DNA of 64,000 bases from Ischnura elegans (lineage: Eukaryota > Arthropoda > Insecta > Odonata > Coenagrionidae). The position numbers were made by a program, and so were the translations under genes. The notes under the pieces were generated by a model. That model ran no database searches, was not told where the DNA came from, and saw only the letters and a program-made list of their open reading frames with translations. Numbering within the stretch: position 1 is the first letter of the stretch; the number at the start of each line of letters is the position of its first letter. Positions 9,631 through 44,361 of this stretch are shown here, piece after piece. The stretch lies in contig NC_060259.1 of the NCBI RefSeq assembly GCF_921293095.1, forward strand, positions 42,451,812 to 42,515,811. The letters are read 5' to 3'.

Positions 9631-11969
9631 TAGCCATGGCTATCATTTTACATGTGGCTTTAAAACTCCTTCTGTTGGTGCCGCTAGCTGGGTGTCTCTT
9701 TGTGAATAGAGCCTTTTGATGAATGGAGCCTCATGGGCAATACCTGTCAAATGGCATCATTCTCTCGTTGCCTTGAATGAACTGTTATAGAAAGAAAAAG
9801 TAAATGTTATAGTTACATTTTTATCACTACAACTTATTCAGGCAGACTAATTTTTTAAAGTACCCACTGGTAATGTTATTTTCCATTCCAGGTTATGTGG
9901 TTGGTAATGTAACTACTTCTGGTATGTTATCTTACGATACAGAATGTTTTGGCATGAAATTATGCATTGTTAGGTGAAAGGGGACCTGAGTTTCTGCCTT
10001 GATCTTGAGTTAGGAACAGTTTTGCGTTACGTATATATATCTTTGAAGTAATTTATTGTAAAGAATGTTGAATTGTACTAAAATATTAAATTTTTAATTT
10101 AATTTATGCAATTATATGATACAATTTTGCCTTGGCTTCCAAGTTGAGTGCCTTTTAATGACTACAGTAAACTTTAATTGGTGAATTTGTATCAAATAAT
10201 GTTGAATCATTCGATTAAAACTCTAAGTAACCCACGGGAGGTCATAATATTCCTTGATAATGCTTAGGGGGAAAAATCTATGGCGGGCGAATGTCAGAAT
10301 ATTGTCTCCCCCTTTTGAAAATGGTACACGCATTTCTCAAATCGGGGGAAAATGCTATTCTTTCCTGATGGCTCTGAATTAATGTTAAATATACTTACAG
10401 AATGCGTCATTGGAATACTACCTACTATTTTTGTATGTGATTCTGATTGGGAGTTTGGTTGTGATATGTTTTGTGTAGACTGTTGGCAGTGATGATCCTA
10501 TTCGCCTCATTGCAGTCATCTGCTATGGTTATTGATAAAATTCCATGTAAATAAACACTGTCTTGGCTAGATTTATTAGGGCTTAAGGCATATAACTGAT
10601 ATCTAACTTCTGCACAAATATTCAACTTTAGCTTGAACCAAATTTAATTTTGCAATTTTATGCATTTTGGTATTTTAATTTTTTGCTTAGATATGTTCAA
10701 GTATCATTCTTATGATATATTGTTAAGTATTTGTAATTAGATAAAAACTTTTTTGCCATTAACGATGTAAAGTTTATCAATGTTCAGAAGAGTGGTGGAC
10801 TGTGAAAAGCACTCTGTAAATGATGGTCTAACTGTTGCACTTGCCATATTAGGCTAACTGATGTTGCCACTTAACTTTGACCCCAGTTCTGTAAAGACCC
10901 TCCTAATTATCTTGGTAGGCAGATGGTTGACTGTATCTAATGATGGTTCAGAACCAATTGAACGAGGGAAGTTGATTAACAGATCGGGCAGTCACAGTAA
11001 ATTGGTTGATTTTTGCACAATACTCTGTGTCTGATTACTGTTTAAACTTCCTTTGTTTATATGCAAAAAGAAAACATTATCCTTGCGATAATGTGCCTAT
11101 ATATGTGTGTAAAAGTTACATTTTTCGAATTAAAAAGTTATAATACTGAAATGAAATCAATAACTGTGATTAATTTTATTCCATGTTACATCGTTATCTG
11201 AAATTTAAAATCCTACTTCTTTAGATGAAGGGTTTATACTGTATATTTTAAGCATACAGGTATTCTATACTTTCAGATTGATTAAACCCATAAGGTTATC
11301 TAAATGTGTATGGCCGTTTAAACAGTCTCGCTGGTTTAATAAGCATATTGCTACCGCGCAGCTATGGAGGATTAATATAATTATTTTGCTCCTGTATGTG
11401 CAAGAAAAAGGAATCGCCATTGTGTTAAAAATGATTTTCTGATAGAAATGTGAATAGTTTTCCCGTCATGGCTTTGCCTTTAATTCACAAATCGTATGAG
11501 AATCCACTTTACTAACGAGTCAAACCTCATATCACCCATGAATAAAATTTGAAAATATTTGTGGGATAAATTTTCAATAGAATTATTGTGATAATATTTA
11601 TCAATTCGAAGATTGGTTTACCATATCTTCATATCTTACCATACTAATGTTTGAGAATGCCTCATCATTTTAAATATCAATGCAAAAATGAAAGTTATTA
11701 ACTGTCGCAAACTTAAAAAAATTTCTTTCGTGAGCAAATTCATTTTGCATCATTATATTCGCACCATTCTAGCGCAAGTTATGGATGAGTCCTTTCGTGG
11801 TGTGGAACCCACCTGGTAAAATATGAAATATCTGTCTTCACCTCACATAGGAATTGTGTGTCTTCAAAAATATGCCTGCTAAAATAAGGCAAGGGTAGCG
11901 CGGACTAGCGGCATTTTCCGCAATACGTGCGACTAGCAGAACAGCGTACCACGAGCACCGTCTACAATA
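9631..11969. other. 3' UTR of the actin-related gene and AT-rich intergenic DNA
   Basis: No ORF here resembles a protein family. The first ~0.5-0.9 kb is probably 3' UTR. I see no other structure. Confidence 0.5.
10085..10555 (+). other. Candidate polyadenylation signals of the actin-related gene
   Basis: ATTAAA occurs at 10085-10090 and AATAAA at 10550-10555 downstream of the stop codon at 9628-9630. Either could end the transcript. I cannot choose between them from sequence alone. Confidence 0.3.
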
Positions 11970-12620
11970 GGGTAGTTTCCTTCATCAAAGAAACCGAAAG
12001 GCATTGATTGGGATTTGTTACCCACAGTTACTGTATTCATAATATACAAATTATTTCGATTTAGAAATACCGGTTTTGACGAATGGCAATGGTCCATTTT
12101 TATCCTCATTTGAAAAGGGCCAGATTGGCGCCCATGCGATGCCACTCCACGTGACGTCACAGGGACCTAGTTTCTATAGGAGAAGATAGGAGTTATACAT
12201 CGTCTGAGATTACCAATGCATGCATGAGGCGCAGAGCTCAGGGAAACATGACTTAATAATCACCTATTAAAACTGGCTAAGGTCGGAAAGTTTTCTTCGT
12301 TTGATAAGGTATTAATAAACCTTTTTTAAGCCAAGCGCTACCAGACAGCAAGGTACTCAGCTACCCTCTAGGATCCTGCGTCCTATCAACGCTCAGAGCC
12401 TCGATCAAGGTCACCTCACAAGGCGGGAGGGGGAACCAGAAATACGTCACACGGAGAGATTTCCTTACCCGTCGCGTTTTCGCGCGCTTGAAAATTTTCA
12501 CTTTTCATTTAATCGCGAAAAATAGATATCGTCATTTAAAAATCTAGAAGCGTGAAATACGTACTCCAGGAGTAATAATCTTCCGATATAGGCAATAAAA
12601 AAATAAAAGGGAAACCACCC
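11970..12620. mobile_element. TA-flanked MITE, copy 1
   Basis: The left end GGGTAGTTTCC is inverted at the right end as GGAAACCACCC (10 of 11), each flanked by TA (11968-11969 and 12621-12622). The 651-bp interior matches the element at 43064-43700 along its whole length. It contains TGACGTCACAGGGACC around 12152. A TA duplication fits Tc1/mariner-type mobilisation, but no transposase is encoded. Confidence 0.75.
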
Positions 12621-22523: not shown

Positions 22524-22530
22524 CTTATCA
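22524..22530 (+). repeat. Left 7-bp direct repeat (CTTATCA) abutting the palindrome
   Basis: CTTATCA ends exactly where the inverted symmetry starts. The same heptamer follows the other end at 36853-36859. Extending one base gives CCTTATCA against TCTTATCA. This is best read as a target-site duplication of 7 or 8 bp. Confidence 0.7.
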
Positions 22531-23823
22531 GTAGTATCAAAATGCCGAAGCTGGGACAAGGTCAAATTAAGCGTTCCCTTTCACTCCCGGTGAATTCCAG
22601 ACACGTGCCGAGCCCATAGCTTCTCCCACTCGAGTTGGATATGTTCCCATTGGTAGTTAGCAAGATCTCCTCATACGTGGAGGTAACGTGAATCGTATTT
22701 CCCCGTCTCGGCATCGGAAATAACCGAAATAATACCTCTAACTACTTTGTTATTGAACATTTTGAAAATAAATGCTTTTCAATGAGAAAACGGGGACAAT
22801 CCAAAGGCGCTTCCGCGTAGCAACCGCGGGGAAAGGCGTCTCGCTGTACAAGCCCCCATTAGACGCACGTACCGAGGTCGCCTCCGCCCTAAACATGACC
22901 ATACGCATTTCAAAACTTGGTTTTCAAACATAGCTACCGTCGCCATAAGAAGTCAATAGAAATTGGGAGGACCACCTCAGAGAGTGAATTAGTGGGTGCC
23001 AACCTGAGTCCATATTCTTTTGGTTATATTTTTTAGAAGTCCATGGAAGTTTTAGGTCATTAAAACCGATAAAATTGATCTGAGAGCTTCAAAACACCTT
23101 ACAAGGGAAATTCTGTCAACTAGCATTAATCCCTGATATTTTTCTCGAAAATACCCTTTTCAGGGTACTTAAGGGTATTCAGGGTAAGGGAAATTTAATT
23201 TTGTCCTGACACCCCCCTATATACCCCTTAAGGGGTCGATCAGGGCGGGGGGTACTCACTACTACGTAGTGAGTAATTTCCCCAAGTTTCAGACCGATTG
23301 GACCAACGGTTTTGGCCCTATGACCAAAAAACCCGAAAATTTCGGGAATTTTGCTCAATAACTCCTTTATTTGAAGAGATAAAAATATAGTTTAAATTGG
23401 AAAGTTGTTCAGTAAGTAACTGGTCATCCATTACGTATATTGTTTAACACTTTACACTTCGGGTGTGACCCCTACACTCTGAGGGAAGGGCATGAGAATG
23501 AAACTTAAACCTCAGTATCTATCTTATTTGAAGTGATAAATGAAAACTGTAAACGGTAAAAGTGATTTAGTTTAACTATCCTTCGAATACACTAATCAAA
23601 ATTTCTCCGACTCCCAAGGATTCAGGGTTAGGGTAACCATGTACCCTAATTTGTAGAGTTAGCATTTTGACAATAAATATCGAACTTGTTCGTCTTTCAA
23701 CTTTATATACGATAAATAAATTTATTTTTCATAATTCCCTCTTAAAGTGCCCAAAAATCGATTTCAAATGGAGTTTGGACTGAAAATTTTTCTCGTTTGG
23801 GGGAAACTTATAAAACCTTATAT

Positions 23824-25175
23824 ATCTTCCACATTTGAATAGATAAAGTTTTGCTTTAAACAGAATAGCTGTTAACATTTTATCATCCTTCAAATGAAAT
23901 CATCAAATTTCCTAATACTCATTCAGGGTCCAAAGTAAGGGTACTAGGGTATCCAATTTGAAGAGTTAGCGTGTTGACAGTTATTACAGAAAATGTTCCT
24001 CTTTTATTGTTATACACGAATCACTGATTATATTTTACGAATTCAAACTGTAAGTCTCTAAAACTGAATGCGATCCTAGTGCATGACGTCACAGCTTCAT
24101 CTACCTTTCATATCTTCCACATTTGAACAGATAAATTTTTGCTTTAAACGGCAGAGCTGTCAGCATTTTATTATCCTTCGAATTCAACAATCAAACTATC
24201 TAAGACTTATTCAGGGTCCAAAGTAAGGATACCAGGGTATCTTATTTGAAGAGTAAGCGTTTTGTCAGTTATTACAGAAAATGTTCCTCCTTTGTCGTAA
24301 TATACGAATCACTGATTATCTTTTACGAATTTAACCCGTTACTCTCAAAAAGTGAATGGGGAGTTTGGCGCATGACGTCACAGCATCATTTACCTTGAAT
24401 ATCTTCCACATTTGAATAGATAAATTTTTGCTTTAAACGGCATAGCTGTAAGCATTTTATCATCCTTCGAATCCAATCATCAAATTTCCTAATACTCATT
24501 CAGGGTCCATAGTAAGGGTACTAGGGTATCCAATTTGAAGAGTTAGCGTGTTGACAGTTATTACAGAAAATGTTCCTCTTTCATTGTTATACACGAATCA
24601 CTAATTATATTTTTACAAATTCAAACTGAAAGTCCTCTTTAACTGAATGCCGATCATAGCGCATGACGTCACAGCTTCATCTACCTTTAATGTCTTCTAC
24701 ATTTGAATAAATAAATTTTTGCTTTAAACGGCATAGCTGTCAGCATTTTATTATCCTTGTAATGCAACCATCAAACTATCTAAGACTTATTCAGGGTCCA
24801 AAGTAAGGATACCAGGGTATCTTATTTGAAGACTAAGCGTTTTGTCAGTTATTACAGAAAATGTTCCTCCTTTGTCGTAATATACGAATCACTGATTATT
24901 TTTTACGTATTCAACCGGTAAGCCCTCCAAAGGTGCATGCCGAAGCTGGCATATGACGTCACAGCAGCATCAAACTTTAATATCTTCCACATTTCAATAG
25001 ATAAATGTAAGCTTTAAACGGCATAGCTGTTAGCATTATATCATCTCTCGGATGAAACAATTAAATTTCCTCAGACCCTTGAGGCTCCATTGCCAGGGTG
25101 CAAGGGTACTCCTATTTCACGATATATCGTTTTGACGTCTATTACATAAAATTTTCATCATTAAAGCTAATAAAC
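23824..25175 (+). repeat. Tandem array of ~290-bp units, left arm
   Basis: The unit-start motif ATCTTCCACATTTGAA (with variants) recurs at 23824, 24112, 24401, 24692 and 24982, spaced 288-291 bp. Units 1 and 3 share TACTCATTCAGGGTCC and CTAGGGTATCCAATTTG. Units 2 and 4 share GACTTATTCAGGGTCC and CCAGGGTATCTTATTTG. So the array is a ~580-bp dimer repeated twice, plus a partial fifth unit. Diverged related units extend outward to about 23340. Each junction carries TGACGTCACAGC. Confidence 0.85.
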
Positions 25176-25361
25176 GAAACCATACTTTGTATTAACCTGT
25201 TCTCTAATATTAATACTTTCTATTCTAATATCCCAAATTAGTGTTAAATTTTTCACTGTTTTTAATATGGAAAGATCATTCCCATCATTCTAATGCAACC
25301 TCTAACATATTTAAGGGTTATTGTTCTGGGTAAATAAATTAAGAAATAAATAATAAATTTT

Positions 25362-25631
25362 TTAATTTGTAATGTTTTTTATTAATTTGCGTGCATAAAA
25401 CTTTTCATCCCCGTTTAAGTTGTAGAAACATACTCCCCCTTCAGTCGTCCTGAACATCCGGGGATAGTATAGATTTCTCTCTCCCCCATCATAATTAATT
25501 AGGGTCAACAACCCCTCTCCATATCGGGTACTAATCCTCTCCTTCCGATACCTCACCCATCCTCCAACTCTTACTTCTTGAGGAAGGTGAACACCTCCAG
25601 TACATCTTGTAGTCTTCTCCTTAATAATCAC
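25362..25631 (-). CDS. Hypothetical terminal exon in left arm (89 codons)
   Basis: On the - strand the frame ends ...GDEKFYARKLIKNITN-stop and includes GGVHLPQEVRVGGWVRYRKE. A good acceptor (pyrimidine tract then GGCAG) precedes it, so it could be a last exon. Composition is richer in G than its surroundings, as for coding DNA. I recognise no family. Because its mirror at 33755-34024 is an identical copy by duplication, conservation is no evidence for coding. It could be chance. Confidence 0.25.
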   Translation of the reverse strand: MIIKEKTTRCTGGVHLPQEVRVGGWVRYRKERISTRYGEGLLTLINYDGGERNLYYPRMFRTTEGGVCFYNLNGDEKFYARKLIKNITN

Positions 25632-28619
25632 TGCCAGAATAAATGGATAGAGAAAATATCAGGTATTGATAAATTAGATGCATCATCATATATTTCATAA
25701 CGAAAAAGAAAAGAAACTCTTTCAAATTAGCAGGAGGAGCTTGCTGTGTTGGTGAGGGTATGAGGTGGTGGTGGTGTAAGATGTACCGGTCGTGGTAGTA
25801 GGGGGTGATTCCCATCCTTCCATAATAAAAGGAAGCGAATAAATTAACATCACAATGAACAATGAGATTTAAGAACTCCGATTTTTTCCTCCATGATCTG
25901 TATTATTTTTTATTGAAGAAGCAGATCTCATTAGTTATTTCATTGATTATTATAGCAATAAATTATAGTGATCTTCCTCTCAGCCCGTAAAATTCCTTAT
26001 ATTTCACTCATGATCAACTTAAAGTTGAATCTCAACGTTTTCAACACTCATAAATAACACTTTTCACCCATTTCCACGAAACACCGCATGGAAACGGTAG
26101 AGTACATTTCTTCTTCTTTATTTTAGGTATTCTAGTAGACATTTTTTCCATTTCCATTTCCATTCCTTTCTTAGTTCTGCAACTTTTTCTAGTGAGATTT
26201 AGGGGTAGGGGGTACCACAGGGGCCATGACTTCGTAACTATCTACGCAGCTATGCCTGTAATTGTTGAAATAAAAGTGTCCTCCATATTAGATGAGTATT
26301 ATTTTTTTAATTAGACGAACCATTACTTCATAATATTGCGTCAAACTCGGGTGCTTATACTTACGACGTGGGAAGTCAATGAAGATGACAAATATGCGTC
26401 GAAAAGTCGGAAAAGATATTAAAAAATTGACCCAACCTCAAAATAAACCAGAAGCATTACTAATAACTAGATATACGTGTAAATAGCACTTTCATTTTAA
26501 TTTTATAGCACCTTCAATTATAGTTTATAGCATTGAGTAGCGTCTTTCTTTTCTTTTTTCATTACACATTATCAGTAGATGACGACAAAGTGCGGTGAAA
26601 CACAGTTATTTGAAAAAATACGGAACAGTTTTAATAATGCGTTGACAAAAATTAATTAAGGAACTAGCTATATACTAAACTAGATCACCCCCGGTGAACT
26701 TCGTACCACCTGATAATCAATGAACGGTTTCAAAACACCAGTTCTAAATCAAGAACGGTTGTACTGATTTTAATAATTTTTGAATTATTATAAAAATATT
26801 AGTAAAAAATGTGCACTCAAGAAAACTACAAGAATAAGTATTACAATGGCTTGTTAGAAAGACATTTTTATTTATTCTATCTACGTTGGGTAGACGGGAG
26901 ACTTAACTTGCCCGCTCTTGGGACAAGCTTACATAACGCTAGACCGATGCTTGATTGACGTAACAATCTCGTGAATCGGCCCTAAGGAAGAACATTAATA
27001 TGTTATGACTTATGGCGCGCTATAGTTTTAACTCGGTTAGGTAAAGTGCACCGCGTAAATCTACCCCATGTGCAAACGTACCTCTGTCTACCCTACACAT
27101 TCGGGTCTATTCCATTGAGCCAAGCACCTTCCGATATACAAGACAAAACACAAAATGTCATCATCGTATAGATCGCTAACGATCTTTGGTAGCGTTTTTA
27201 ATAACCGTAGTCAAGGTGACAGTCTGAAAAAAAAAACATTCTCAGGAAGAAAGGTAAAGAGGGAGAAATGTCTCTATATTCCAATTGGTGAACTCACCGA
27301 TTTTTGCGCCTTTTAGACGGAAGCGTGCGAAAATGGGCTGGCGGGGGCGGTGATGTAGCCTGTATGGTCTAGTTTGAGTCTCATTCAATTAGCAGTAAGA
27401 GCCGGCAGAGCATTTCCATAGAGCTCGTGACTAAATTTACGAATTTACCATCGAAAAGACAAATTTGCTGATTAAACATCGTAAAAGTCCAGTCATGGCG
27501 CCTATGTCGCATTTATTCACGTGCATCGCATCAATATCGCATTTATCACATTAGCAATTTTTACGTATCACTACAAATAACTTATTGGTCATGAAGCACA
27601 CTCGTTGGTTCAGACAGGAGATACCCATTTCCTCTCGTTTCTCATTGTTCTCTAAGCTCTCATGCTTTCACTTATTCTGTTTTTATTTTGCTAACTATGT
27701 CAAAAAATTAAAGTATTTTCTCAATTATCATTAGGATACATCTATGCTGGTAATCACTTATTTATTCGAAAAGTCAATGGTTTTCATTCAAAAAGTAAGC
27801 ACAATCTTCTACCATAATCAACGTATTTTAATGCGCATCATCCTAATGAGATTTTTTTATTTTGATATTTCGTACAGATAATTTTCGATCACAATTTTTG
27901 TTACGTATCTCCAGCTTAATTTAGCTAATTCCGCAAGCAATATAAGTGTTATGCGTCATCAAAATGGTATGTGAGAGTAGTTTCCATAGAGGCAAAGCCG
28001 TTTCCTGCTCCGAATTCGATCATTATAATGTAAAATTTTAGAACTCAGGTCTACAAGCTCCTTACATGACTTATGATCCCACAAATCAATACAAATATAT
28101 TTTAGACGTCAATTTACGGGAAGAAATCTCTTTTACATTCATTTATAGCGATTAATTTACCCACTGGAGGCGCTCCAAGCCCCCCCCCCCCCTTGCCCCC
28201 CCCCACCCTCCCAAAGCTTTTATTTCTTAGCTTACCATGATCTAACCTTTATATGATCCGGATGCGTCATGTCTCTTTCAAACAAAAAATTTTTAGAATG
28301 TGTAAGCTTTATTTGAGTGATGGAGTCACAGATGGATACTACTTATTTATCTCCAATAGTCAGAAAAATATGGTTCAAACTGGAGGAAAAATATCAATAA
28401 AGTTCAAAGCTCATGCCATAGAGACATAGGAGTAGGAATAATTAACATATTTGAGTAATTATCGAGGATTCTGACTATGGAAAACATAAGTGACTTTTAT
28501 TCATCTAATCAATGAACAGGTAACATAATTTTTTTGTAGTTTATATATTTCAAGCCGTCATGAATCATATGTTGATATCTGCACTGTTTGGTTTCCATTT
28601 CTTCAATCAAATTAAATAA

Positions 28620-28811
28620 TTATCTCCAAACTTCTTTGCAATACTCTGTGATTAGAATTGTTTTGGTAAATATTGTCGTGTCCGTAAACGTCCAGTCGCT
28701 CTCGTTGCGGCTCGTGAGAGAACAGGATGCGTTCCAAGTGTAAAAGGACGAGTATTCTGCTCCACAATTGTCAGTTTTTGGTCCAAAGCCGAATCTTAAC
28801 CTACGGAGCAC
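28620..28811 (-). other. Unassigned 63-codon ORF, left arm (mirror at 30574-30765 +)
   Basis: The frame includes LRFGFGPKTDNCGAEYSSF, three Cys and two N-glycosylation sequons (NAS, NES). It has no ATG start, and neighbouring exons are not evident. It may be an exon of the same hypothetical gene as 25362-25631, since both read outward from the centre, or it may be chance. Confidence 0.15.
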
Positions 28812-29684
28812 TAGCCTCCCAGTGAACTAGAGAGAGAAAGACTAACTCAGACGGTTATAGATTCGTTAAGTGCTTTGACGTCTTGACCCTGATTTCCCCC
28901 AAGCTCCTCCGGTTGTAGCCCGGACGGTCTACAACCCCGATTTTCAGGGTCCTGTCCTGATCGTCGTAGGGATGCGACAATATTTTATTCCAATAGATCA
29001 GCATTTCTTAGAAAAACAAACTTCCATTACGGTGAAATGCAGGTAATTTACAGTACATATTACTGTAATGAAGTTTATTATGAAAAATACTTAGATAGTT
29101 TATCTTCAGCGTTTAATTGCAGGCTATGTTTTATTCACGGAGCCTTGATATTGAAATTTTCACTTTAACCAATTTGTTATACTTGTAGTAACTTGAGTGT
29201 TTTTAAACCAAAGCTCCTTAGGCACATACCATTCTTATCATTGGAATAAATGAAATCAAAAGTGACGGCGATTTGGATTTATCGGTGAAAACTAACGCCA
29301 TCTATTACTATCTATCCAAACAAGGTCGTTATCTTCAATCGCTTCGTGCAATGTGATTGGTTGGATATTTCACCATCCCCTCCAGGACCAACATCCTATT
29401 ATTGCCGAGCATAAATGAAGGGGTAAAGGCTATAACTCCATCAGTGTGCGGACCAAGGCGTCGCTGATGTGACATCGTCTTGCATACGGTGATAAACAAT
29501 CATCAAAAACAAGCAAATGACCATTGGAGAGAAAGAACCACTGGTTACTATTTGGTTTGGAATCCTACGGTACACTTTGGCATTTGGCATTTTTGCTAAA
29601 TTTGAATATTTTTTCATTTTACTGATTTTTCGATACTTCCTGAATGCAAATATTTTTCACTCCATTAGCAAAATGTACCGTAGG

Positions 29685-29700
29685 ATTCCAAATTTGGAAT
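29685..29700. other. Centre of symmetry of the giant palindrome
   Basis: ATTCCAAATTTGGAAT is perfectly self-complementary, and the symmetry continues on both sides without a spacer. The 67-codon ORFs at 29517-29720 (+) and 29665-29868 (-) both run across this point. They are the same sequence read twice, so they are not evidence for a gene. Confidence 0.9.
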
Positions 29701-32700
29701 CCTACGGTACATTTTGCTAATGGAGTGAAAAATATTTGCATTCAGGAAGTATCGAAAAATCAGTAAAATGAAAAAATATTCAAATTTAGCAAAAATGCCA
29801 AATGCCAAAGTGTACCGTAGGATTCCAAACCAAATAGTAACCAGTGGTTCTTTCTCTCCAATGGTCATTTGCTTGTTTTTGATGATTGTTTATCACCGTA
29901 TGCAAGACGATGTCACATCAGCGACGCCTTGGTCCGCACACTGATGGAGTTATAGCCTTTACCCCTTCATTTATGCTCGGCAATAATAGGATGTTGGTCC
30001 TGGAGGGGATGGTGAAATATCCAACCAATCACATTGCACGAAGCGATTGAAGATAACGACCTTGTTTGGATAGATAGTAATAGATGGCGTTAGTTTTCAC
30101 CGATAAATCCAAATCGCCGTCACTTTTGATTTCATTTATTCCAATGATAAGAATGGTATGTGCCTAAGGAGCTTTGGTTTAAAAACACTCAAGTTACTAC
30201 AAGTATAACAAATTGGTTAAAGTGAAAATTTCAATATCAAGGCTCCGTGAATAAAACATAGCCTGCAATTAAACGCTGAAGATAAACTATCTAAGTATTT
30301 TTCATAATAAACTTCATTACAGTAATATGTACTGTAAATTACCTGCATTTCACCGTAATGGAAGTTTGTTTTTCTAAGAAATGCTGATCTATTGGAATAA
30401 AATATTGTCGCATCCCTACGACGATCAGGACAGGACCCTGAAAATCGGGGTTGTAGACCGTCCGGGCTACAACCGGAGGAGCTTGGGGGAAATCAGGGTC
30501 AAGACGTCAAAGCACTTAACGAATCTATAACCGTCTGAGTTAGTCTTTCTCTCTCTAGTTCACTGGGAGGCTAGTGCTCCGTAGGTTAAGATTCGGCTTT
30601 GGACCAAAAACTGACAATTGTGGAGCAGAATACTCGTCCTTTTACACTTGGAACGCATCCTGTTCTCTCACGAGCCGCAACGAGAGCGACTGGACGTTTA
30701 CGGACACGACAATATTTACCAAAACAATTCTAATCACAGAGTATTGCAAAGAAGTTTGGAGATAATTATTTAATTTGATTGAAGAAATGGAAACCAAACA
30801 GTGCAGATATCAACATATGATTCATGACGGCTTGAAATATATAAACTACAAAAAAATTATGTTACCTGTTCATTGATTAGATGAATAAAAGTCACTTATG
30901 TTTTCCATAGTCAGAATCCTCGATAATTACTCAAATATGTTAATTATTCCTACTCCTATGTCTCTATGGCATGAGCTTTGAACTTTATTGATATTTTTCC
31001 TCCAGTTTGAACCATATTTTTCTGACTATTGGAGATAAATAAGTAGTATCCATCTGTGACTCCATCACTCAAATAAAGCTTACACATTCTAAAAATTTTT
31101 TGTTTGAAAGAGGCATGACGCATCCGGATCATATAAAGGTTAGATCATGGTAAGCTAAGAAATAAAAGCTTTGGGAGGGTGGGGGGGGGGCAAGGGGGGG
31201 GGGGGGCTTGGAGCGCCTCCAGTGGGTAAATTAATCGCTATAAATGAATGTAAAAGAGATTTCTTCCCGTAAATTGACGTCTAAAATATATTTGTATTGA
31301 TTTGTGGGATCATAAGTCATGTAAGGAGCTTGTAGACCTGAGTTCTAAAATTTTACATTATAATGATCGAATTCGGAGCAGGAAACGGCTTTGCCTCTAT
31401 GGAAACTACTCTCACATACCATTTTGATGACGCATAACACTTATATTGCTTGCGGAATTAGCTAAATTAAGCTGGAGATACGTAACAAAAATTGTGATCG
31501 AAAATTATCTGTACGAAATATCAAAATAAAAAAATCTCATTAGGATGATGCGCATTAAAATACGTTGATTATGGTAGAAGATTGTGCTTACTTTTTGAAT
31601 GAAAACCATTGACTTTTCGAATAAATAAGTGATTACCAGCATAGATGTATCCTAATGATAATTGAGAAAATACTTTAATTTTTTGACATAGTTAGCAAAA
31701 TAAAAACAGAATAAGTGAAAGCATGAGAGCTTAGAGAACAATGAGAAACGAGAGGAAATGGGTATCTCCTGTCTGAACCAACGAGTGTGCTTCATGACCA
31801 ATAAGTTATTTGTAGTGATACGTAAAAATTGCTAATGTGATAAATGCGATATTGATGCGATGCACGTGAATAAATGCGACATAGGCGCCATGACTGGACT
31901 TTTACGATGTTTAATCAGCAAATTTGTCTTTTCGATGGTAAATTCGTAAATTTAGTCACGAGCTCTATGGAAATGCTCTGCCGGCTCTTACTGCTAATTG
32001 AATGAGACTCAAACTAGACCATACAGGCTACATCACCGCCCCCGCCAGCCCATTTTCGCACGCTTCCGTCTAAAAGGCGCAAAAATCGGTGAGTTCACCA
32101 ATTGGAATATAGAGACATTTCTCCCTCTTTACCTTTCTTCCTGAGAATGTTTTTTTTTTCAGACTGTCACCTTGACTACGGTTATTAAAAACGCTACCAA
32201 AGATCGTTAGCGATCTATACGATGATGACATTTTGTGTTTTGTCTTGTATATCGGAAGGTGCTTGGCTCAATGGAATAGACCCGAATGTGTAGGGTAGAC
32301 AGAGGTACGTTTGCACATGGGGTAGATTTACGCGGTGCACTTTACCTAACCGAGTTAAAACTATAGCGCGCCATAAGTCATAACATATTAATGTTCTTCC
32401 TTAGGGCCGATTCACGAGATTGTTACGTCAATCAAGCATCGGTCTAGCGTTATGTAAGCTTGTCCCAAGAGCGGGCAAGTTAAGTCTCCCGTCTACCCAA
32501 CGTAGATAGAATAAATAAAAATGTCTTTCTAACAAGCCATTGTAATACTTATTCTTGTAGTTTTCTTGAGTGCACATTTTTTACTAATATTTTTATAATA
32601 ATTCAAAAATTATTAAAATCAGTACAACCGTTCTTGATTTAGAACTGGTGTTTTGAAACCGTTCATTGATTATCAGGTGGTATGAAGTTCACCGGGGGTG

Positions 32701-33754
32701 ATCTAGTTTAGTATATAGCTAGTTCCTTAATTAATTTTTGTCAACGCATTATTAAAACTGTTCCGTATTTTTTCAAATAACTGTGTTTCACCGCACTTTG
32801 TCGTCATCTACTGATAATGTGTAATGAAAAAAGAAAAGAAAGACGCTACTCAATGCTATAAACTATAATTGAAGGTGCTATAAAATTAAAATGAAAGTGC
32901 TATTTACACGTATATCTAGTTATTAGTAATGCTTCTGGTTTATTTTGAGGTTGGGTCAATTTTTTAATATCTTTTCCGACTTTTCGACGCATATTTGTCA
33001 TCTTCATTGACTTCCCACGTCGTAAGTATAAGCACCCGAGTTTGACGCAATATTATGAAGTAATGGTTCGTCTAATTAAAAAAATAATACTCATCTAATA
33101 TGGAGGACACTTTTATTTCAACAATTACAGGCATAGCTGCGTAGATAGTTACGAAGTCATGGCCCCTGTGGTACCCCCTACCCCTAAATCTCACTAGAAA
33201 AAGTTGCAGAACTAAGAAAGGAATGGAAATGGAAATGGAAAAAATGTCTACTAGAATACCTAAAATAAAGAAGAAGAAATGTACTCTACCGTTTCCATGC
33301 GGTGTTTCGTGGAAATGGGTGAAAAGTGTTATTTATGAGTGTTGAAAACGTTGAGATTCAACTTTAAGTTGATCATGAGTGAAATATAAGGAATTTTACG
33401 GGCTGAGAGGAAGATCACTATAATTTATTGCTATAATAATCAATGAAATAACTAATGAGATCTGCTTCTTCAATAAAAAATAATACAGATCATGGAGGAA
33501 AAAATCGGAGTTCTTAAATCTCATTGTTCATTGTGATGTTAATTTATTCGCTTCCTTTTATTATGGAAGGATGGGAATCACCCCCTACTACCACGACCGG
33601 TACATCTTACACCACCACCACCTCATACCCTCACCAACACAGCAAGCTCCTCCTGCTAATTTGAAAGAGTTTCTTTTCTTTTTCGTTATGAAATATATGA
33701 TGATGCATCTAATTTATCAATACCTGATATTTTCTCTATCCATTTATTCTGGCA

Positions 33755-34024
33755 GTGATTATTAAGGAGAAGACTACAAGATGTACTGGAGGTGTTCACC
33801 TTCCTCAAGAAGTAAGAGTTGGAGGATGGGTGAGGTATCGGAAGGAGAGGATTAGTACCCGATATGGAGAGGGGTTGTTGACCCTAATTAATTATGATGG
33901 GGGAGAGAGAAATCTATACTATCCCCGGATGTTCAGGACGACTGAAGGGGGAGTATGTTTCTACAACTTAAACGGGGATGAAAAGTTTTATGCACGCAAA
34001 TTAATAAAAAACATTACAAATTAA
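33755..34024 (+). CDS. Hypothetical terminal exon in right arm (89 codons)
   Basis: This is the mirror copy of 25362-25631. A pyrimidine-rich tract and CAG end at 33755, so coding as an exon would start at 33756. The frame runs VIIKEKTTRCTGG to the stop at 34022-34024, followed by AT-rich DNA. No ATG opens the frame, so any gene needs an upstream exon, which I could not define. Confidence 0.25.
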   Translation: MIIKEKTTRCTGGVHLPQEVRVGGWVRYRKERISTRYGEGLLTLINYDGGERNLYYPRMFRTTEGGVCFYNLNGDEKFYARKLIKNITN

Positions 34025-34209
34025 AAAATTTATTATTTATTTCTTAATTTATTTACCCAGAACAATAACCCTTAAATATGTTAGAGGTTGCATTAGAATG
34101 ATGGGAATGATCTTTCCATATTAAAAACAGTGAAAAATTTAACACTAATTTGGGATATTAGAATAGAAAGTATTAATATTAGAGAACAGGTTAATACAAA
34201 GTATGGTTT

Positions 34210-35561
34210 CGTTTATTAGCTTTAATGATGAAAATTTTATGTAATAGACGTCAAAACGATATATCGTGAAATAGGAGTACCCTTGCACCCTGGCAATGGA
34301 GCCTCAAGGGTCTGAGGAAATTTAATTGTTTCATCCGAGAGATGATATAATGCTAACAGCTATGCCGTTTAAAGCTTACATTTATCTATTGAAATGTGGA
34401 AGATATTAAAGTTTGATGCTGCTGTGACGTCATATGCCAGCTTCGGCATGCACCTTTGGAGGCTTACCGGTTGAATACGTAAAAAATAATCAGTGATTCG
34501 TATATTACGACAAAGGAGGAACATTTTCTGTAATAACTGACAAAACGCTTAGTCTTCAAATAAGATACCCTGGTATCCTTACTTTGGACCCTGAATAAGT
34601 CTTAGATAGTTTGATGGTTGCATTACAAGGATAATAAAATGCTGACAGCTATGCCGTTTAAAGCAAAAATTTATTTATTCAAATGTAGAAGACATTAAAG
34701 GTAGATGAAGCTGTGACGTCATGCGCTATGATCGGCATTCAGTTAAAGAGACTTTCAGTTTGAATTTGTAAAATATAATTAGTGATTCGTGTATAACAAT
34801 GAAAGAGGAACATTTTCTGTAATAACTGTCAACACGCTAACTCTTCAAATTGGATACCCTAGTACCCTTACTATGGACCCTGAATGAGTATTAGGAAATT
34901 TGATGATTGGATTCGAAGGATGATAAAATGCTTACAGCTATGCCGTTTAAAGCAAAAATTTATCTATTCAAATGTGGAAGATATTCAAGGTAAATGATGC
35001 TGTGACGTCATGCGCCAAACTCCCCATTCACTTTTTGAGAGTAACGGGTTAAATTCGTAAAAGATAATCAGTGATTCGTATATTACGACAAAGGAGGAAC
35101 ATTTTCTGTAATAACTGACAAAACGCTTACTCTTCAAATAAGATACCCTGGTATCCTTACTTTGGACCCTGAATAAGTCTTAGATAGTTTGATTGTTGAA
35201 TTCGAAGGATAATAAAATGCTGACAGCTCTGCCGTTTAAAGCAAAAATTTATCTGTTCAAATGTGGAAGATATGAAAGGTAGATGAAGCTGTGACGTCAT
35301 GCACTAGGATCGCATTCAGTTTTAGAGACTTACAGTTTGAATTCGTAAAATATAATCAGTGATTCGTGTATAACAATAAAAGAGGAACATTTTCTGTAAT
35401 AACTGTCAACACGCTAACTCTTCAAATTGGATACCCTAGTACCCTTACTTTGGACCCTGAATGAGTATTAGGAAATTTGATGATTTCATTTGAAGGATGA
35501 TAAAATGTTAACAGCTATTCTGTTTAAAGCAAAACTTTATCTATTCAAATGTGGAAGATAT
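34210..35561 (-). repeat. Tandem array of ~290-bp units, right arm (mirror)
   Basis: This is the inverted copy of the array at 23824-25175. TGACGTCA recurs at 34425-34432, 34714-34721, 35003-35010 and 35292-35299, a spacing of 289 bp. The same alternation of unit types is present. Confidence 0.85.
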
Positions 35562-36852
35562 ATAAGGTTTTATAAGTTTCCCCCAAACGAGAAAAATTTT
35601 CAGTCCAAACTCCATTTGAAATCGATTTTTGGGCACTTTAAGAGGGAATTATGAAAAATAAATTTATTTATCGTATATAAAGTTGAAAGACGAACAAGTT
35701 CGATATTTATTGTCAAAATGCTAACTCTACAAATTAGGGTACATGGTTACCCTAACCCTGAATCCTTGGGAGTCGGAGAAATTTTGATTAGTGTATTCGA
35801 AGGATAGTTAAACTAAATCACTTTTACCGTTTACAGTTTTCATTTATCACTTCAAATAAGATAGATACTGAGGTTTAAGTTTCATTCTCATGCCCTTCCC
35901 TCAGAGTGTAGGGGTCACACCCGAAGTGTAAAGTGTTAAACAATATACGTAATGGATGACCAGTTACTTACTGAACAACTTTCCAATTTAAACTATATTT
36001 TTATCTCTTCAAATAAAGGAGTTATTGAGCAAAATTCCCGAAATTTTCGGGTTTTTTGGTCATAGGGCCAAAACCGTTGGTCCAATCGGTCTGAAACTTG
36101 GGGAAATTACTCACTACGTAGTAGTGAGTACCCCCCGCCCTGATCGACCCCTTAAGGGGTATATAGGGGGTGTCAGGACAAAATTAAATTTCCCTTACCC
36201 TGAATACCCTTAAGTACCCTGAAAAGGGTATTTTCGAGAAAAATATCAGGGATTAATGCTAGTTGACAGAATTTCCCTTGTAAGGTGTTTTGAAGCTCTC
36301 AGATCAATTTTATCGGTTTTAATGACCTAAAACTTCCATGGACTTCTAAAAAATATAACCAAAAGAATATGGACTCAGGTTGGCACCCACTAATTCACTC
36401 TCTGAGGTGGTCCTCCCAATTTCTATTGACTTCTTATGGCGACGGTAGCTATGTTTGAAAACCAAGTTTTGAAATGCGTATGGTCATGTTTAGGGCGGAG
36501 GCGACCTCGGTACGTGCGTCTAATGGGGGCTTGTACAGCGAGACGCCTTTCCCCGCGGTTGCTACGCGGAAGCGCCTTTGGATTGTCCCCGTTTTCTCAT
36601 TGAAAAGCATTTATTTTCAAAATGTTCAATAACAAAGTAGTTAGAGGTATTATTTCGGTTATTTCCGATGCCGAGACGGGGAAATACGATTCACGTTACC
36701 TCCACGTATGAGGAGATCTTGCTAACTACCAATGGGAACATATCCAACTCGAGTGGGAGAAGCTATGGGCTCGGCACGTGTCTGGAATTCACCGGGAGTG
36801 AAAGGGAACGCTTAATTTGACCTTGTCCCAGCTTCGGCATTTTGATACTACT

Positions 36853-36859
36853 CTTATCA
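36853..36859 (+). repeat. Right 7-bp direct repeat (CTTATCA) abutting the palindrome
   Basis: This is the partner of 22524-22530. It lies directly after the right terminal GATACTAC(T). The flanking DNA beyond it (TGCCCAAGACGTCACGTCAC) is unique and unlike the left flank. Confidence 0.7.
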
Positions 36860-38956: not shown

Positions 38957-39155
38957 ATGGCCCCACCTACATACGGAGACCTAGGAAAGGCATCCCGCGA
39001 TGTTTTCGGCAAGGGATACCACTTCGGTCACATTAAGTTGGAATTGAAAACAAAGACTGAAGATTCAGTCGATATTACTGCCGGTGGTACCCTTAATCAA
39101 GACACGGGGAAGGTGTTCGGAACGTTGGAAACGAAGTATAAAGTGAAGGACTATG
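38957..39155 (+). CDS. VDAC: VDAC coding exon 1
   Basis: The acceptor TTTTTCAG is at 38953, AAA follows, then ATG. It encodes the N-terminal helix and first strands through [10 protein letters not shown]. The donor is GTATGG and the split Gly is completed in the next exon. Confidence 0.95.
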
Positions 39156-42100
39156 GTATGGTATCTCCTGTACTCTTTATGTTTTGTACATTCGTGTGGA
39201 TTGGTAGTAATGTTAATTTTATTGCAGGAATGGTTTTCACGGAGAAGTGGAATACGGACAATTCCCTTTCCACTGAGATATCCATTGAAGATAAAATAGC
39301 GAAAGGCTTGAAGCTTTCATTGGACACTACCTTCTCCCCACAAAGCGGGTAAAAGAGTTGAAAACTAAACCATCTCTGTAGAATTAGCTTGTGGGCTTGA
39401 AGTTAATACCTTTCTCTCCCATCTAGAAAGAAGACTGGTCGAGTAAAGAGCCAGTATAAACATGATAGTATCGCAATGAATATGGACGTGAATTTAGACC
39501 TTGGTGGACCAGTTATAAATGGAAGCTCAGTTTTTGGATACAACGGTTGGTGGGCAATTTCTATTTTATTATTTTCACTCTCAACGGCTTAAGCCAGTCT
39601 ACTTTTGTCTGAAACTAATGGTGATGCAGTGACTCATCTGAACGGAAAACATTTGATTGTTTCCTTTTTGCTACTAATTTTCTGTGAACAACAATGTTCT
39701 TGGGAATTCTGGTCATATCAAATTTTTGCATGTGTTGGGTACATCGTGTGTCTGAATTTTTGTGGTGGTATTTAAGTACTTTGGCTGTCTGTAGTTGACA
39801 TATGTCATGGGTAATAATGCAGGTACTTGTGTTTTTAATCACTAAAGCTAGTTATGCGTAGATTTAATTTGATCTATACTTACTAGTCCACCAATTATTT
39901 TATTACTCTGTCTTCATAGTTAATTACTTGTATTGGCTTTTATGGTTGCAGTAATATTGCAATGCAGTGTCAAATCGATGAAAAAGACCTTTTGACATGG
40001 TAAAGGATTTATTTTTCTGTGATGAAGCTGTTGATTATTGTGGATCTATAAAATATTTTTGATACCCATCCTAGCTTCTGGAAGGCAATGTTTCCTATTT
40101 CAATCTATATTTTTAATGCCATTATTTATGATTGTTTCTTTGACTCTTTTTCATGGTAAAGAGATTGAATAATGTTGAAGTTGAAGAGTAATACTTTTGA
40201 GTATGGAATATTAAAGAGTTAAATATTCTTCCCGTCATAATTCCATTAATACATGTTTTGATGCCACAACTAAGAACTAGATTTCTTAGTTAGTAAGGAG
40301 ATAATGGTTTTAACACTATAAATTCTTAAGTAGTAATTTTGATCCATTTTCATTACTGTGCATCCACTATCTACGATAAATTGGTATTATATACTCAGCA
40401 GTTTAAACTGAAAACAATTCAACCCAAACAAATTCAATGCTTACTTAACTTATTAATTATAAGAATCTGAGTTCTTAGTGTCTCCTTAATTTCTCGCTGT
40501 TGTTGAAATTTATCATAATTAAATGCAATTTTGTTGGCACATATCTATGCTTTCAATGTGGGATACATTTTTAAAGACTACCAAATACCTTAAATTATTT
40601 AAGAGCGGTAATAGGAAGCGTTGCAAAGTAATTTAATGAAATTTCTGCCTAACCATTGAAGTGAATGGAGCACAATTCTTGGAAGTCGTTTTTTGATTAG
40701 GAGGAATTTACAATTTCTTTTCAGTTATTCAAATAGGTAGAGTTAGTTGCAAAAATTTTGCTTTCCTTTTGTTGCCCCTTGATGGTTGCTGTGTGAGAGA
40801 GGACATAGGTTTATTTTATTTTGATGTTGGAGCGTTGGTTTCCCCATTCTTATGGGCATGGTTTTTAGATGTCAGTTTTCAATTAGGCTTAACATAGTAT
40901 TCAAAACTACAGTGGCATGCTAAAGGGTTATTTCAATACAGTTCTTCATCATTGATATTGACCATTAACTCATTTGAAGCTGGACATGGATCCTGAACAT
41001 ATCCATTAGTGGAGTCCAATCACATTTCCTTTCAAGCCTGAAACAAACTGCACACGATTAAAGAATTAAATCTTCTGTAGACCACAGTCATGGACAGGAC
41101 TTAGCAGCAGTATCAGGGATAAATGCAATGAATCCTGAATTGATGTGGTCTACACTGTGTTAATGGGTGTGCCTTAGGTACATATTGCTCAGAAAAGGTT
41201 GATGGTTTAAATGTGATCTTTGTGTTTACCCTCCATACCTGGCTATCCTTTCCTTACCATACGTCCACCATTGGCATAAATCTAGATGAGCTATTATTGG
41301 GGTAACCTCCCCAAAAACTGACAATGCGTTGGTGACATCGTTGGTTGAAGGCTTTCATGTATTGCAGGTGTTCTTGCACTTTGGTGGTAGAACATTTTCC
41401 ATTAATGAGGATTCTTTTAAGTATTTCCTGTTGTATGAACATTAATTGTGATATTGATTGGAGTAGAGATACATAGGCTAGTTATGAGTAATTAATTGCA
41501 GATTATATTTGCCCATCATGCAATACTTGATTAAATATTTCTTTTCTTCCCACATCCATTGAGTTGACTTATGATTCAAGTGACTAGGCATCTCTTATGC
41601 TGGACTCTTCTGCTTTTTTCACTCTTTCCCTGATATCCCCTACAAGATTTATGGCATAACTCTGTGTCCCACTCTCACAGTCTCTTTTTTTCTTTGGGAG
41701 CATTTTCATTGTGTAGATATAGTTAACAAGTGATTTTTTTCCCAAATGAAAAAATTTTTAGCTTTACAGATTTTGCTTTAGAAGTGTTTTAGGCTTGCGA
41801 TCAACTCTCAAAGTACCTTATGTCTATGACTGTAAAATCCCAAGCATGTGTTAGACTGAATTAAGAATTAATTGGGCTGTGGGGAAGGGTATTTGGATGA
41901 GGCCACAACGGCTTAGGTCATTTGCCCAATAGGGAGGCAAAGGTGGATAGAGTCCCCACGTCAGCTTTTGCATGCTCCTAACGAAAGGTACCAAAGGGAC
42001 CATGGCTTAGTGTCTCATCCAACGGATGGAGTGCTGTACAAGAACCTTCACAAAGCATTTGAGTAGGGATCACTGGGGCAGTCTCTGAAAAATTTCCACC

Positions 42101-44361
42101 ACTTCCAGGATATTTACCTATGCCCATGGGGTGGTAAGCCAGTACTCTAAGCCACCACACCAACCAGATTCCAAGAACTAATTTCCTCTCCTGTATAGAA
42201 TTTAACAGCTGTCAGATATCTTTCATACAGCACTGGTTAACAATAAGTCTCTTTAGTGTGGCTCGTGCTCATTGGCTTAGATCTGGTTGGCTTAAATAGT
42301 AAATGTCCCGCTATCAGTAATCGAAGATCTAGTCTTTTCAGTGATGGTTGGCATCTGTGCAACCATGACCTTTGGTCTTCGTTAATTCAGGAATTGTTTT
42401 CATGAATTTGCTTCTTCATTAGGTATATAATTTTGAACCGTGGGAATCTTGAGTTTGTTTTTTATCTGGGCATAATGCCCACTGAATGATTAGCTATAAC
42501 ATGTGAGAAATTGGTGTCTATTCATTGGAATTGTTATTATTTGCTGTTTTCAGGCTGGCTGGCTGGATATCAAATGTCTTTTGATTCTTCCAAATCCAAA
42601 TTTACAAAGAATAATTTTGCTGTTGGATTCTCTACTGGTGACTTTGTGCTGCACACTAATGTGTAAGTTTAACTGCATGTTGTCATTTGACAAGTGAAAT
42701 GGATAGGACGTGTTCAATGCTATTTAGACTTATTCTCTTTGGCTCCTAATTATGAGAATCATCTCTTATTTCATGGACTTAGCAATGATGGACAAGAGTA
42801 CTGTGGCTCCCTTTACCAGAAGGTCAATTCTCAGCTGGAGACTGGGATCCAGTTAGCGTGGACAGCTGGATCAAATTCAACAAGATTTGAAATTGGATGC
42901 AAGTATGCTTTGGCTGAGAATGCTGCTGTTCGTGCTAAGGTGGATAACTCAAGCCGCGTTGGTCTTGGTTACCAGCAGAAGTTACGAGATGGTATGTTTG
43001 CCATCATCAATAAGTACAAATATGTATGTAGCTGCTTCAGGCAGCTCTCTGTTAAAGTTATTAGGGTAGTTTCCTTCATCAAAGAAAATGAAAGGTATTG
43101 ATTGCGATTCGTTACCCACCATTAGTGTATTCATAATATACAAATCATTTGGTTTTAGAAATCTCTTTAGACGAATGTTTATGGTCAATTTTAACCTCAT
43201 TTGAAAAATGCCAGATTGGCAGCCATGCGATGCCACTCTATGTGACGTCACAGGGACCCAGATGCTATACGAGTAGTCAGTAGTTTTACATTACCTGAGA
43301 TTACCAATGCATGCATGAGGCACAGAGCTCAGGGAAACATTTCTTAATAATCACCTATTAAAGTTGCCTATGGTCGGAAAGTTTCCTTCGTTTAACAGGG
43401 TATTAATAATCCTTATATAAGCCAAGCGCTACCTGCTAGCAGGGTTCTCTGCTACCTGCCTGCATCGTATCTGCGCTCATAGCCACGTACCAAGGTGGCC
43501 TCACACAGCGGCAGCTGGAACTAGAATGACGTCACATGGGCTTTTCCCAGCATTCATACTTAGCCGTCGCGTTTTCGCGTGCTTGAAATTTTTCACTTTT
43601 CATTTAATCGCGAAAAATAGATATTGTCATTTAAAATCTAAAAGCGATTTTTATCTAATCTTTCGATTTAGGCAGTAAAAAAATAATAGGAAACCACTAT
43701 TATATTCAAGGTTGAATTAACATTGTATCTTTCTATTAAAATTTTTTTGTTGTGGACATGAACATGAAAGGTTTTTCCCATCAGTTTTTAGGTACAGTTA
43801 TTTGTTTATATTTAATTTTGTCGTCATTGTTTAGTTAATATTAAATTATAAGAGTGTAAATTTAACATACCTTTAAATACAGTAATGAAAAAGTTAAACC
43901 ATTTGAATAAGTATTTTAACTGGCTGCCAGACATGGTTTTCAATGGTAATTTATCAGAGGGAAGTGTATAAAATCATGAATAACTGATCATTGAAGGGGA
44001 AAAAGGAATGCTTTATTGTTTCAATTTGCTCAAGAGTATCCATCTAGAGCTGTGGGGAAAGTAATTTAAAATTAGGTTTGTTACAACTCTCAGAGTAATC
44101 ATTTCCAGTAAGATGTTTTGCCTAGAGGAGAACTAAATTCCTATTTTTATAACCTGTAGAATGTCATGTAATATAAGTGGGCTTATTTATCATAGGGATA
44201 CATTAGCAATCAACTTGTTCCATGAAGTCTTATATTTACCTTACACATTTAAAATGTTATTATTTGCAGGTGTGACACTAACAATGTCAGCTTTAATTGA
44301 TGGCAAAAACTTCAACCAGGGTGGGCACAAGCTTGGCCTGGCCTTGGACTTGGAGGCTTGA
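38957..44361 (+). CDS. VDAC: Voltage-dependent anion channel (mitochondrial porin)
   Basis: Coding exons 38957-39155, 39228-39348, 39427-39545, 42554-42662, 42783-42991 and 44270-44361 join to exactly 282 codons plus TGA. Animal VDACs are 280-283 residues. The product is the 19-strand beta-barrel of the mitochondrial outer membrane that passes ATP, ADP and other anions. Seen: the N-terminal helix [40 protein letters not shown] with the conserved Glu at residue 72 (vertebrate E73), [54 protein letters not shown] and the C-terminal [19 protein letters not shown]. All junctions are GT-AG and in phase. The start is the first ATG after the acceptor at 38953. The long intron 39546-42553 holds a possible SINE, and the last intron holds a MITE. 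The gene appears intact and functional. Confidence 0.97.
39228..39348 (+). CDS. VDAC: VDAC coding exon 2
   Basis: A short 72-bp intron precedes it (acceptor ATTGCAG). It encodes [20 protein letters not shown] through [12 protein letters not shown]. The donor is GTAAAA after AGC GG, and the next exon supplies A to complete Gly. Confidence 0.95.
39427..39545 (+). CDS. VDAC: VDAC coding exon 3
   Basis: The acceptor is CATCTAG. It encodes [20 protein letters not shown], then [19 protein letters not shown]. The donor reads GTTGGT, a weak match to the GTRAGT consensus, but it is the only junction that keeps the GYNGWLAGYQ reading frame. Confidence 0.93.
41880..42180 (-). mobile_element. Possible tRNA-derived SINE in VDAC intron
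   Basis: Read on the - strand, the segment begins GGTTGGTGTGGTGGCTTAGA, which resembles a pol III A-box region (TGGCTTAGAGTACTGG). It continues GC-richer than its surroundings for ~300 bp. A matching B-box is only degenerate. The overlapping 61-codon ORF on the - strand has no family resemblance. Confidence 0.4.
42554..42662 (+). CDS. VDAC: VDAC coding exon 4
   Basis: The acceptor is TGTTTTCAG. It encodes [20 protein letters not shown], then [15 protein letters not shown]. The donor is GTAAGT with phase 2. Confidence 0.95.
42783..42991 (+). CDS. VDAC: VDAC coding exon 5
   Basis: The acceptor is GACTTAG. It encodes [40 protein letters not shown] and on to [10 protein letters not shown]. The donor is GTATGT. 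The MITE at 43064 lies 72 bp downstream in the intron. Confidence 0.95.
43064..43700. mobile_element. TA-flanked MITE, copy 2, inside a VDAC intron
   Basis: This is a second copy of the family at 11970-12620, in the same orientation. It starts GGGTAGTTTCCTTCATCAAA after TA and ends GGAAACCACTAT before TA. It sits in the VDAC intron 42992-44269, about 70 bp past the donor. It contains TGACGTCA at 43243-43250 and 43527-43534. Copies differ by many point changes, so both are old. Confidence 0.75.
44270..44361 (+). CDS. VDAC: VDAC coding exon 6 and stop
   Basis: The acceptor is TATTTGCAG. It encodes [20 protein letters not shown], then LGLALDLEA and TGA. The GGHK-LGL-LEA ending is the canonical VDAC C-terminus. 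Confidence 0.96.

Follow-up and report, generated by a model that had tools for sequence, protein, structure and literature searches.

A family of very large palindromes with Maverick-type ends in Ischnura elegans, probably satellites of adintovirus-like elements

Here, we describe a very large palindrome in a stretch of 64,000 nucleotides from the genome of Ischnura elegans (NCBI RefSeq assembly GCF_921293095.1, contig NC_060259.1, positions 42,451,812 to 42,515,811 of the forward strand; this whole stretch is called the window in the following). The palindrome belongs to a family whose members are inserted at unrelated loci, are flanked by perfect 6-bp target-site duplications and end in short AGT repeats. 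Rather than an assembly mistake, it probably represents a self-copying, palindromic parasite of a resident virus-like element. The explanation we favour, and consider likely overall, is a family of non-autonomous palindromic satellites of an adintovirus/Maverick whose arms are renewed by snap-back replication. We hold the link of the palindromes to Mavericks and adintoviruses with good confidence; on snap-back regeneration as the reason for the identical arms, our judgement is evenly balanced.

Comparison of the window with itself (self-BLAST) revealed a single inverted repeat at positions 22530–36852 with its centre at 29692/29693. The left arm of 7163 bp and the right arm of 7160 bp are 99.90% identical, meet without any spacer and pair perfectly across the innermost 1,420 bases on either side of the centre. 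Only seven differences separate them, namely two transitions and five 1-base indels, all of the latter in runs of at least two identical bases; chance cannot explain so long and so close a match. An earlier note on this DNA, made from the letters alone, had described arms of about 7.16 kb that are reverse-complementary around 29692/29693 with few differences and without a spacer, and this description holds for the window copy. It had also placed the right end correctly, at 36852, and the left end one base off, at 22531. The ends given here are exact, because 6-bp duplications (CTTATC) abut both of them; the left arm starts with 5'-AGTAGT and the right arm finishes with ACTACT-3'. Each arm holds approximately 4.3–4.6 copies of a tandem subrepeat with a unit of 289–291 bp, in line with the subrepeats hinted at before. 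The features of the palindrome are as follows:

22524..22529, + strand: left target-site duplication CTTATC (control with shifted offsets 0/2716 over seven copies)
22530..29692, + strand: left arm, 7163 bp, starting with 5'-AGTAGT (self-BLAST and reading of the end)
23815..25178, + strand: tandem subrepeats of ~289 bp in the left arm (repeat analysis)
29556..29579, + strand: short inverted repeat a, 24 bp, corresponding to the stem base of the loop in sister copies (centre comparison)
29580..29668, + strand: 89-bp sequence that forms the single-copy loop in 4/5 sister palindromes read and is found here on both sides of the centre
29669..29692, + strand: short inverted repeat a', last part of the left arm before the spacer-free centre (centre comparison)
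29693..36852, - strand: right arm, 7160 bp, finishing with ACTACT-3' (self-BLAST and reading of the end)
29717..29805, - strand: mirror copy of the 89-bp loop sequence (centre comparison)
34208..35568, - strand: tandem subrepeats of ~289 bp in the right arm (repeat analysis)
36853..36858, + strand: right target-site duplication CTTATC (same control with shifted offsets)

The arms contain no stop-to-stop frame of 150 amino acids. They yield 45 fragments of 45 amino acids or more; 10 of these were scanned against Pfam, and the few matches (E 0.06–0.23) all fell below the cut-off. Likewise, no match was obtained in the window with Rfam at gathering cut-offs or with a tRNA scan in bacterial mode, none between the left arm and phage records, and none (0 matches) between a 21-base stem motif and IMG/VR.

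The genome (1.72 Gb in 110 contigs, named C1 onwards, with the window on C19) was searched with a 600-bp query covering the centre of the palindrome. The resulting 63 matching stretches were grouped as 38 loci on 14 contigs, and both halves of the query were partly matched at 21/38 loci, a count that includes copies with one arm and the loop. At ten of these 38 loci, 20 kb were read around the match. Five of them harbour large palindromes, located on C10 (13,712 bp), C6 (14,338 bp), C5 (11,867 bp), C7 (13,765 bp) and C4 (12,713 bp, with a central spacer of ~650 bp); the remaining five comprise a partial palindrome on C19, a single arm with a short inverted tip on C12 and three single arms on C13. 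Within each of the five palindromes, the arms are at least 99.4% identical (in the C4 copy they differ at 2/6031 positions) and the flanks are unlike. In all seven copies with both ends read, i.e. the window copy, the five palindromes and the C12 copy, the element is bordered by a perfect 6-bp target-site duplication (CTTATC, ACTTTC, GCTTCT, GTAATA, TATGTT, CATGAA and CTCCAC), compared to 0/2716 in the control with shifted offsets. Beyond the duplications, the flanks agree at 43–64 of 200 positions between copies. For the partial palindrome on C19 and the single arms on C13, no pair of ends with a duplication was found. The arms of the window copy are ~95% identical to those of the C10, C6 and C7 copies.

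Sister copies at unrelated loci, each with its own flanks and perfect duplications, establish a very large non-autonomous element with long inverted arms, as the earlier note had proposed. The note had further suggested a search of the assembly for other copies with the same ends, and these are present: the five palindromes and the C12 copy have 6-bp duplications and AGT-type ends. The alternative it had left standing, a one-off recent inverted duplication, is excluded by the existence of the family. As a side observation, a diverged relative at C4:1.486–1.490 Mb (L045, C4:1485600-1489599) is 82–87% identical to the window arm and has arms of at least 1.9 kb that are 99.95% identical around a differently placed centre.

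Next, we compared the ends with those of Mavericks/Polintons. For vertebrate Mavericks, the available text of one study gives 6-bp duplications, a commonest end motif of 5'-(AGT)2//(ACT)2-3' and, in intact elements, terminal repeats of 46–1,447 bp that are tied to protein-primed replication (PMC8097293). The palindromes agree with this signature in their 6-bp duplications (7/7 copies with both ends read) and in a short direct repeat at the extreme end, which reads AGTAGT in 6/7 copies and AGTAGG in the C5 copy, with the complement at the opposite end in all. Via the sister copies, they also have terminal sequence in common with a coding element (see below). No sign of the Maverick/Polinton gene set (protein-primed PolB, integrase, ATPase, protease and capsid) was obtained from the frames of the window arms, from the 10 of 45 arm fragments scanned with Pfam or, for the adenain-type protease, from nine palindromic-family elements, and we therefore class the palindromes as presumed non-autonomous dependants and not as Mavericks. 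Elsewhere in the genome, at least 151 matches to DNA_pol_B_2 (Pfam) were obtained (best 83 of 364 candidates). One polymerase-bearing Maverick on C9 (L043/L044, C9:21349000-21357999 and 21361000-21370999), of which both ends were read but not joined, has a 6-bp duplication (GTTATG) and the opposite ends, ACTACT..AGTAGT, and thus represents a different Maverick family; its terminal repeats contain subrepeats. No palindromic Maverick family was met among the top matches in the open-licence PMC literature, and a word search of the text of the I. elegans morph locus paper did not return Maverick, Polinton or palindrom- (PMC10781644).

A likely helper emerged from the tips of the sister copies. The 25-bp tip AGTAGTNNGGATTTGGGGAGTCTGG, taken from the C10/C6/C7 and C4/C12 copies, has 43 forward and 43 reverse matches in the genome at up to two mismatches, and its reversed control has 0. 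These 86 tips form 39 facing pairs, with 8 tips unpaired; the census covers ends that match this pattern, which tips like that of the window copy escape. Of the pairs, 7/39 hold a match to the palindrome centre and correspond to palindromes or their deletion products. The other 32 measure 14.7–16.0 kb in 26 cases and 19.4–20.9 kb in 4 cases, and 2 are shorter. In one of them (C3:3217145-3232573), two stretches of 1.2 kb were read, one of which encodes a protein of 178 amino acids that is 53% identical to 'adenain [Ladona dragonfly adintovirus]' (E 3.7e-50), the sixth match of the protein search after five unnamed ones. The Pfam match of this frame to the adenovirus protease is weak (E 0.09) and below the cut-off, so the assignment as a protease rests on the protein search. 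A neighbouring frame appeared capsid-like by eye, gave no convincing match and was not used.

Among the best 150 of 319 candidates, an adenain-type protease lies inside 30/32 of the non-palindromic tip pairs, 2.87–2.90 kb from one end in 29 of those 30, and in 0/9 of the palindromic-family elements (the six palindromes read, C2:147773276-147785138 and two 5.8-kb derivatives on C12). In addition, a 9,741-bp pair at C2:140816313-140826053 (G000) holds two copies of the protease in inverted orientation, one 2868 bp from one end and the other 2873 bp from the other, the same spacing as in the full elements. An inverted duplication of one end of a coding element is the simplest interpretation, and the pair is, as judged from coordinates, a probable palindromic form of the coding adintovirus itself. 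Considering this apparent palindrome of the coding virus together with the differently placed centre at C4:1.486 Mb, palindrome formation probably recurs, and palindromes seem to arise repeatedly.

Having both arms of several insertions at hand, we looked at how the arms change between copies. Between the window copy and the C10 copy, 335 sites are concerted, meaning that both arms differ together, and 11 sites differ in a single arm. Within the trio C10/C6/C7, the 57 variable sites divide into 34 concerted sites, 17 single-arm sites and 6 sites that are asymmetric in all three copies. All six everywhere-asymmetric sites are located at the loop, and 4 of the 17 single-arm sites adjoin it in the C7 copy; inherited arm asymmetry outside the loop was not observed in this trio. 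Arms that are inherited independently would pass on their differences. Since none is seen outside the loop, either both arms are remade from one or conversion between them is very complete. The C4 copy shows 103–104 single-arm sites in the same comparison, because elements were halved at the midpoint and its spacer was thereby drawn into the alignment.

At the centre, the sister palindromes on C10, C6, C5 and C7, four out of the five that were read, show a single-copy loop of ~89 nt flanked by a 24-bp inverted repeat, a/a'. In the window, a, loop and a' directly abut their own mirror image and the centre is therefore spacer-free. Such a centre was not seen in any of the five sister palindromes read, and among the 38 loci only the window matches the 600-bp query from end to end. 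Ten further centres were read. The break lies only a few bases from the loop/stem border in four of them (L025, L026, L027 and L028) and at the distal end of a' in L029; deletions are located elsewhere in L030, L032 and L034, and the loop is altered in L031 and L033. The C12 and C13 copies break inside a', the former consisting of one arm plus a 34-bp inverted tip. The three C13 copies (loci L011, L012 and L015–L018) consist of one arm followed by other sequence past arm position 7153, and they count as one event because junction and downstream flank are common to all three. Two of them show peculiarities of their own: at 11.115 Mb, ~1.65 kb of upstream sequence recurs in direct orientation immediately behind the arm; the one at 11.547 Mb contains an insertion with a frame of 463 amino acids. 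A reading of the C13 single arms as the pre-palindromic ancestor, suggested by a 14-bp inverted repeat that ends at the point of divergence, was dropped as unproven; it was weakened by the shared event and by the other truncated copies that break near the same place.

Snap-back replication on a helper could account for these observations as follows. Polymerase and integrase would be provided in trans by an adintovirus-type helper. As protein-primed replication proceeds by strand displacement, the strand of one arm that is displaced would fold back at a/a' and prime its own copying, such that each cycle would convert one arm into a full palindrome of about helper length, which the helper integrase would then insert. 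In the window copy, a turn-around at a later point, 24 bp past the loop, may have produced the spacer-free centre: we infer that a break immediately past a' was closed by fold-back and then copied. In the available text of PMC8363768, fly-associated adintoviruses measure 13.3–14.6 kb. The palindromes are thus of viral genome size, which may be a result of selection on length, but derivatives of 5.8 kb with both tips occur as well. More tentatively, one can conceive of a satellite lineage that exists only as the full-length palindrome of about helper size, with one arm snap-back copied into both in each cycle and the product integrated by the helper; it might act as a defective-interfering genome and as a source of double-stranded RNA against the virus.

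Several observations weigh against this explanation. Dependence on the helper is inferred from the common tip only, and the tip of the window copy, which is not among the matches to the tip pattern, resembles the helper tip only in AGTAGT and at scattered positions further in; the link to the helper therefore runs through the sister copies, with their ~95% identical arms. The palindrome arms have no detectable DNA in common with the two 1.2-kb stretches of the protease-bearing C3 element. Two of the 32 pairs are without a protease match among the best 150 of 319 candidates, which is not proof of absence, and no DNA_pol_B_2 place was seen by eye inside the 32 pairs (best 83 of 364 candidates). 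Furthermore, the one polymerase-bearing Maverick with ends read carries the opposite repeat, the C2 palindrome is judged from coordinates, and gene conversion in place between the arms would equally yield identical arms.

The last point leads to the main rival for the arm identity, namely that the same Maverick-dependent element formed a palindrome once, long ago, and that its arms have since been kept identical by chromosomal gene conversion, as is the case for the arms of long sex-chromosome palindromes. Gene conversion explains concerted change without any special replication, including the 34 trio sites at which both arms of one insertion have changed alike. However, it would have to be very complete to leave no inherited asymmetry outside the loop in the trio, and a single ancient formation is at odds with the differently placed centre at C4:1.486 Mb and with the apparent palindromic form of the coding virus. 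We consider this reading unlikely, although it is the most serious competitor. Less probable still is an origin from single-arm copies, with the palindromes as head-to-head dimers of two joined monomers. The three one-arm copies on C13 and the C12 copy with its one arm and 34-bp inverted tip would fit this order of events, but the C13 copies amount to one event, the C12 copy retains the inverted tip of a lost second arm, and the loop/stem border or its vicinity is where a number of truncated copies break, as expected of broken palindromes.

With regard to a foldback-type cut-and-paste element of the P/Galileo or FB/MULE kind, a relationship brought up by the earlier note, the long inverted arms with tandem subrepeats are indeed present. 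FB/MULE and Galileo/P elements produce target-site duplications of 7–9 bp, as opposed to 6 bp in 7/7 copies here. Moreover, 6-bp duplications and AGT-repeat ends are published for Mavericks, the tip of the sister copies is common to adenain-bearing, adintovirus-type elements, and the arm fragments scanned gave no Pfam match at the cut-off (10 of 45). An identity with FB or Galileo was accordingly rejected on duplication length and tip, and we regard the wider foldback reading as very improbable. An assembly fold-back or chimeric read is, in our view, the least credible explanation. The absence of a spacer and the nature of the arm differences, 5/7 of which are 1-base indels in homopolymer runs resembling residual sequencing error, would suit such an artefact. 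Yet several chromosomes carry independent copies that differ from one another in flanks, arm length and duplication, and their 200-bp flanks agree at only 43–64 positions; own flanks and perfect duplications of the sister copies therefore exclude a fold-back as the general explanation, and it was rejected on these grounds. The sister copies do not by themselves prove every base of the window copy, as its arm differences are mostly 1-base indels in runs.

The surroundings of the palindrome in the window hold further features. To its right, exons of a voltage-dependent anion channel gene extend over 38957–44361 on the + strand, with the start codon ~2.1 kb from the palindrome; the joined exons are 100% identical to an Ischnura elegans protein. 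A second, 378-bp palindrome at 62827–63204 is 96.8% self-complementary, has TA at either end and looks like a mariner-type miniature foldback element. An inverted repeat (60184–60331 and 60463–60613, 87% identical) is possibly another miniature element, and a putative mariner transposase fragment, judged from the translation only, lies at 53936–54181 on the - strand. Finally, two direct copies of a dispersed repeat are located at 11968–12618 and 43062–43697 (~80% identical).

Palindromes of many kb without a spacer are expected to be unstable and rapidly lost. Despite this expectation, very large palindromes with near-identical arms are spread here over several chromosomes of a single insect species. 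Should they be snap-back satellites of Mavericks, they would constitute chromosomal evidence for linear replication with displaced strands in Mavericks, record defective-interfering genomes in an animal under natural conditions, and suggest how virus infection could lead to loci for long hairpin RNA. Palindrome breakage could be tested on the copies as well, as several truncated ones end at or near the loop/stem border.

Compared with known systems, the palindromes resemble Mavericks/Polintons and adintoviruses in the 6-bp duplication, the (AGT)2//(ACT)2 ends and the total length, and differ from Mavericks/Polintons in their inverted repeats of ~7 kb and in that no coding genes were found. With FB, Galileo and Tetris of Drosophila they have long inverted arms with tandem subrepeats in common; those elements belong to other superfamilies, have another duplication length and are mostly shorter. 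Symmetric defective adenovirus genomes and the palindromic deletion forms of protein-primed linear plasmids are inverted duplications of one end, and they match the palindromes in that a protein-primed linear replicon gives rise to such a duplication; to our knowledge, these forms are not known as an integrated, amplified family. The snapback anatomy, with an inverted end duplication and a turn-around centre, fits the palindromes, and by its coordinates also C2:140816313-140826053, with the qualification that the palindrome arm was not found in the two coding-element stretches read. In the available text on adeno-associated virus (AAV), snapback genomes are defective interfering particles (PMC8235507), in which one end of a linear genome is duplicated into a self-complementary molecule, either symmetric or looped. 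The palindromes are alike in this respect and differ, as far as that text goes, in belonging to a Maverick-like system, in being inserted in host chromosomes and in forming a multi-copy family.

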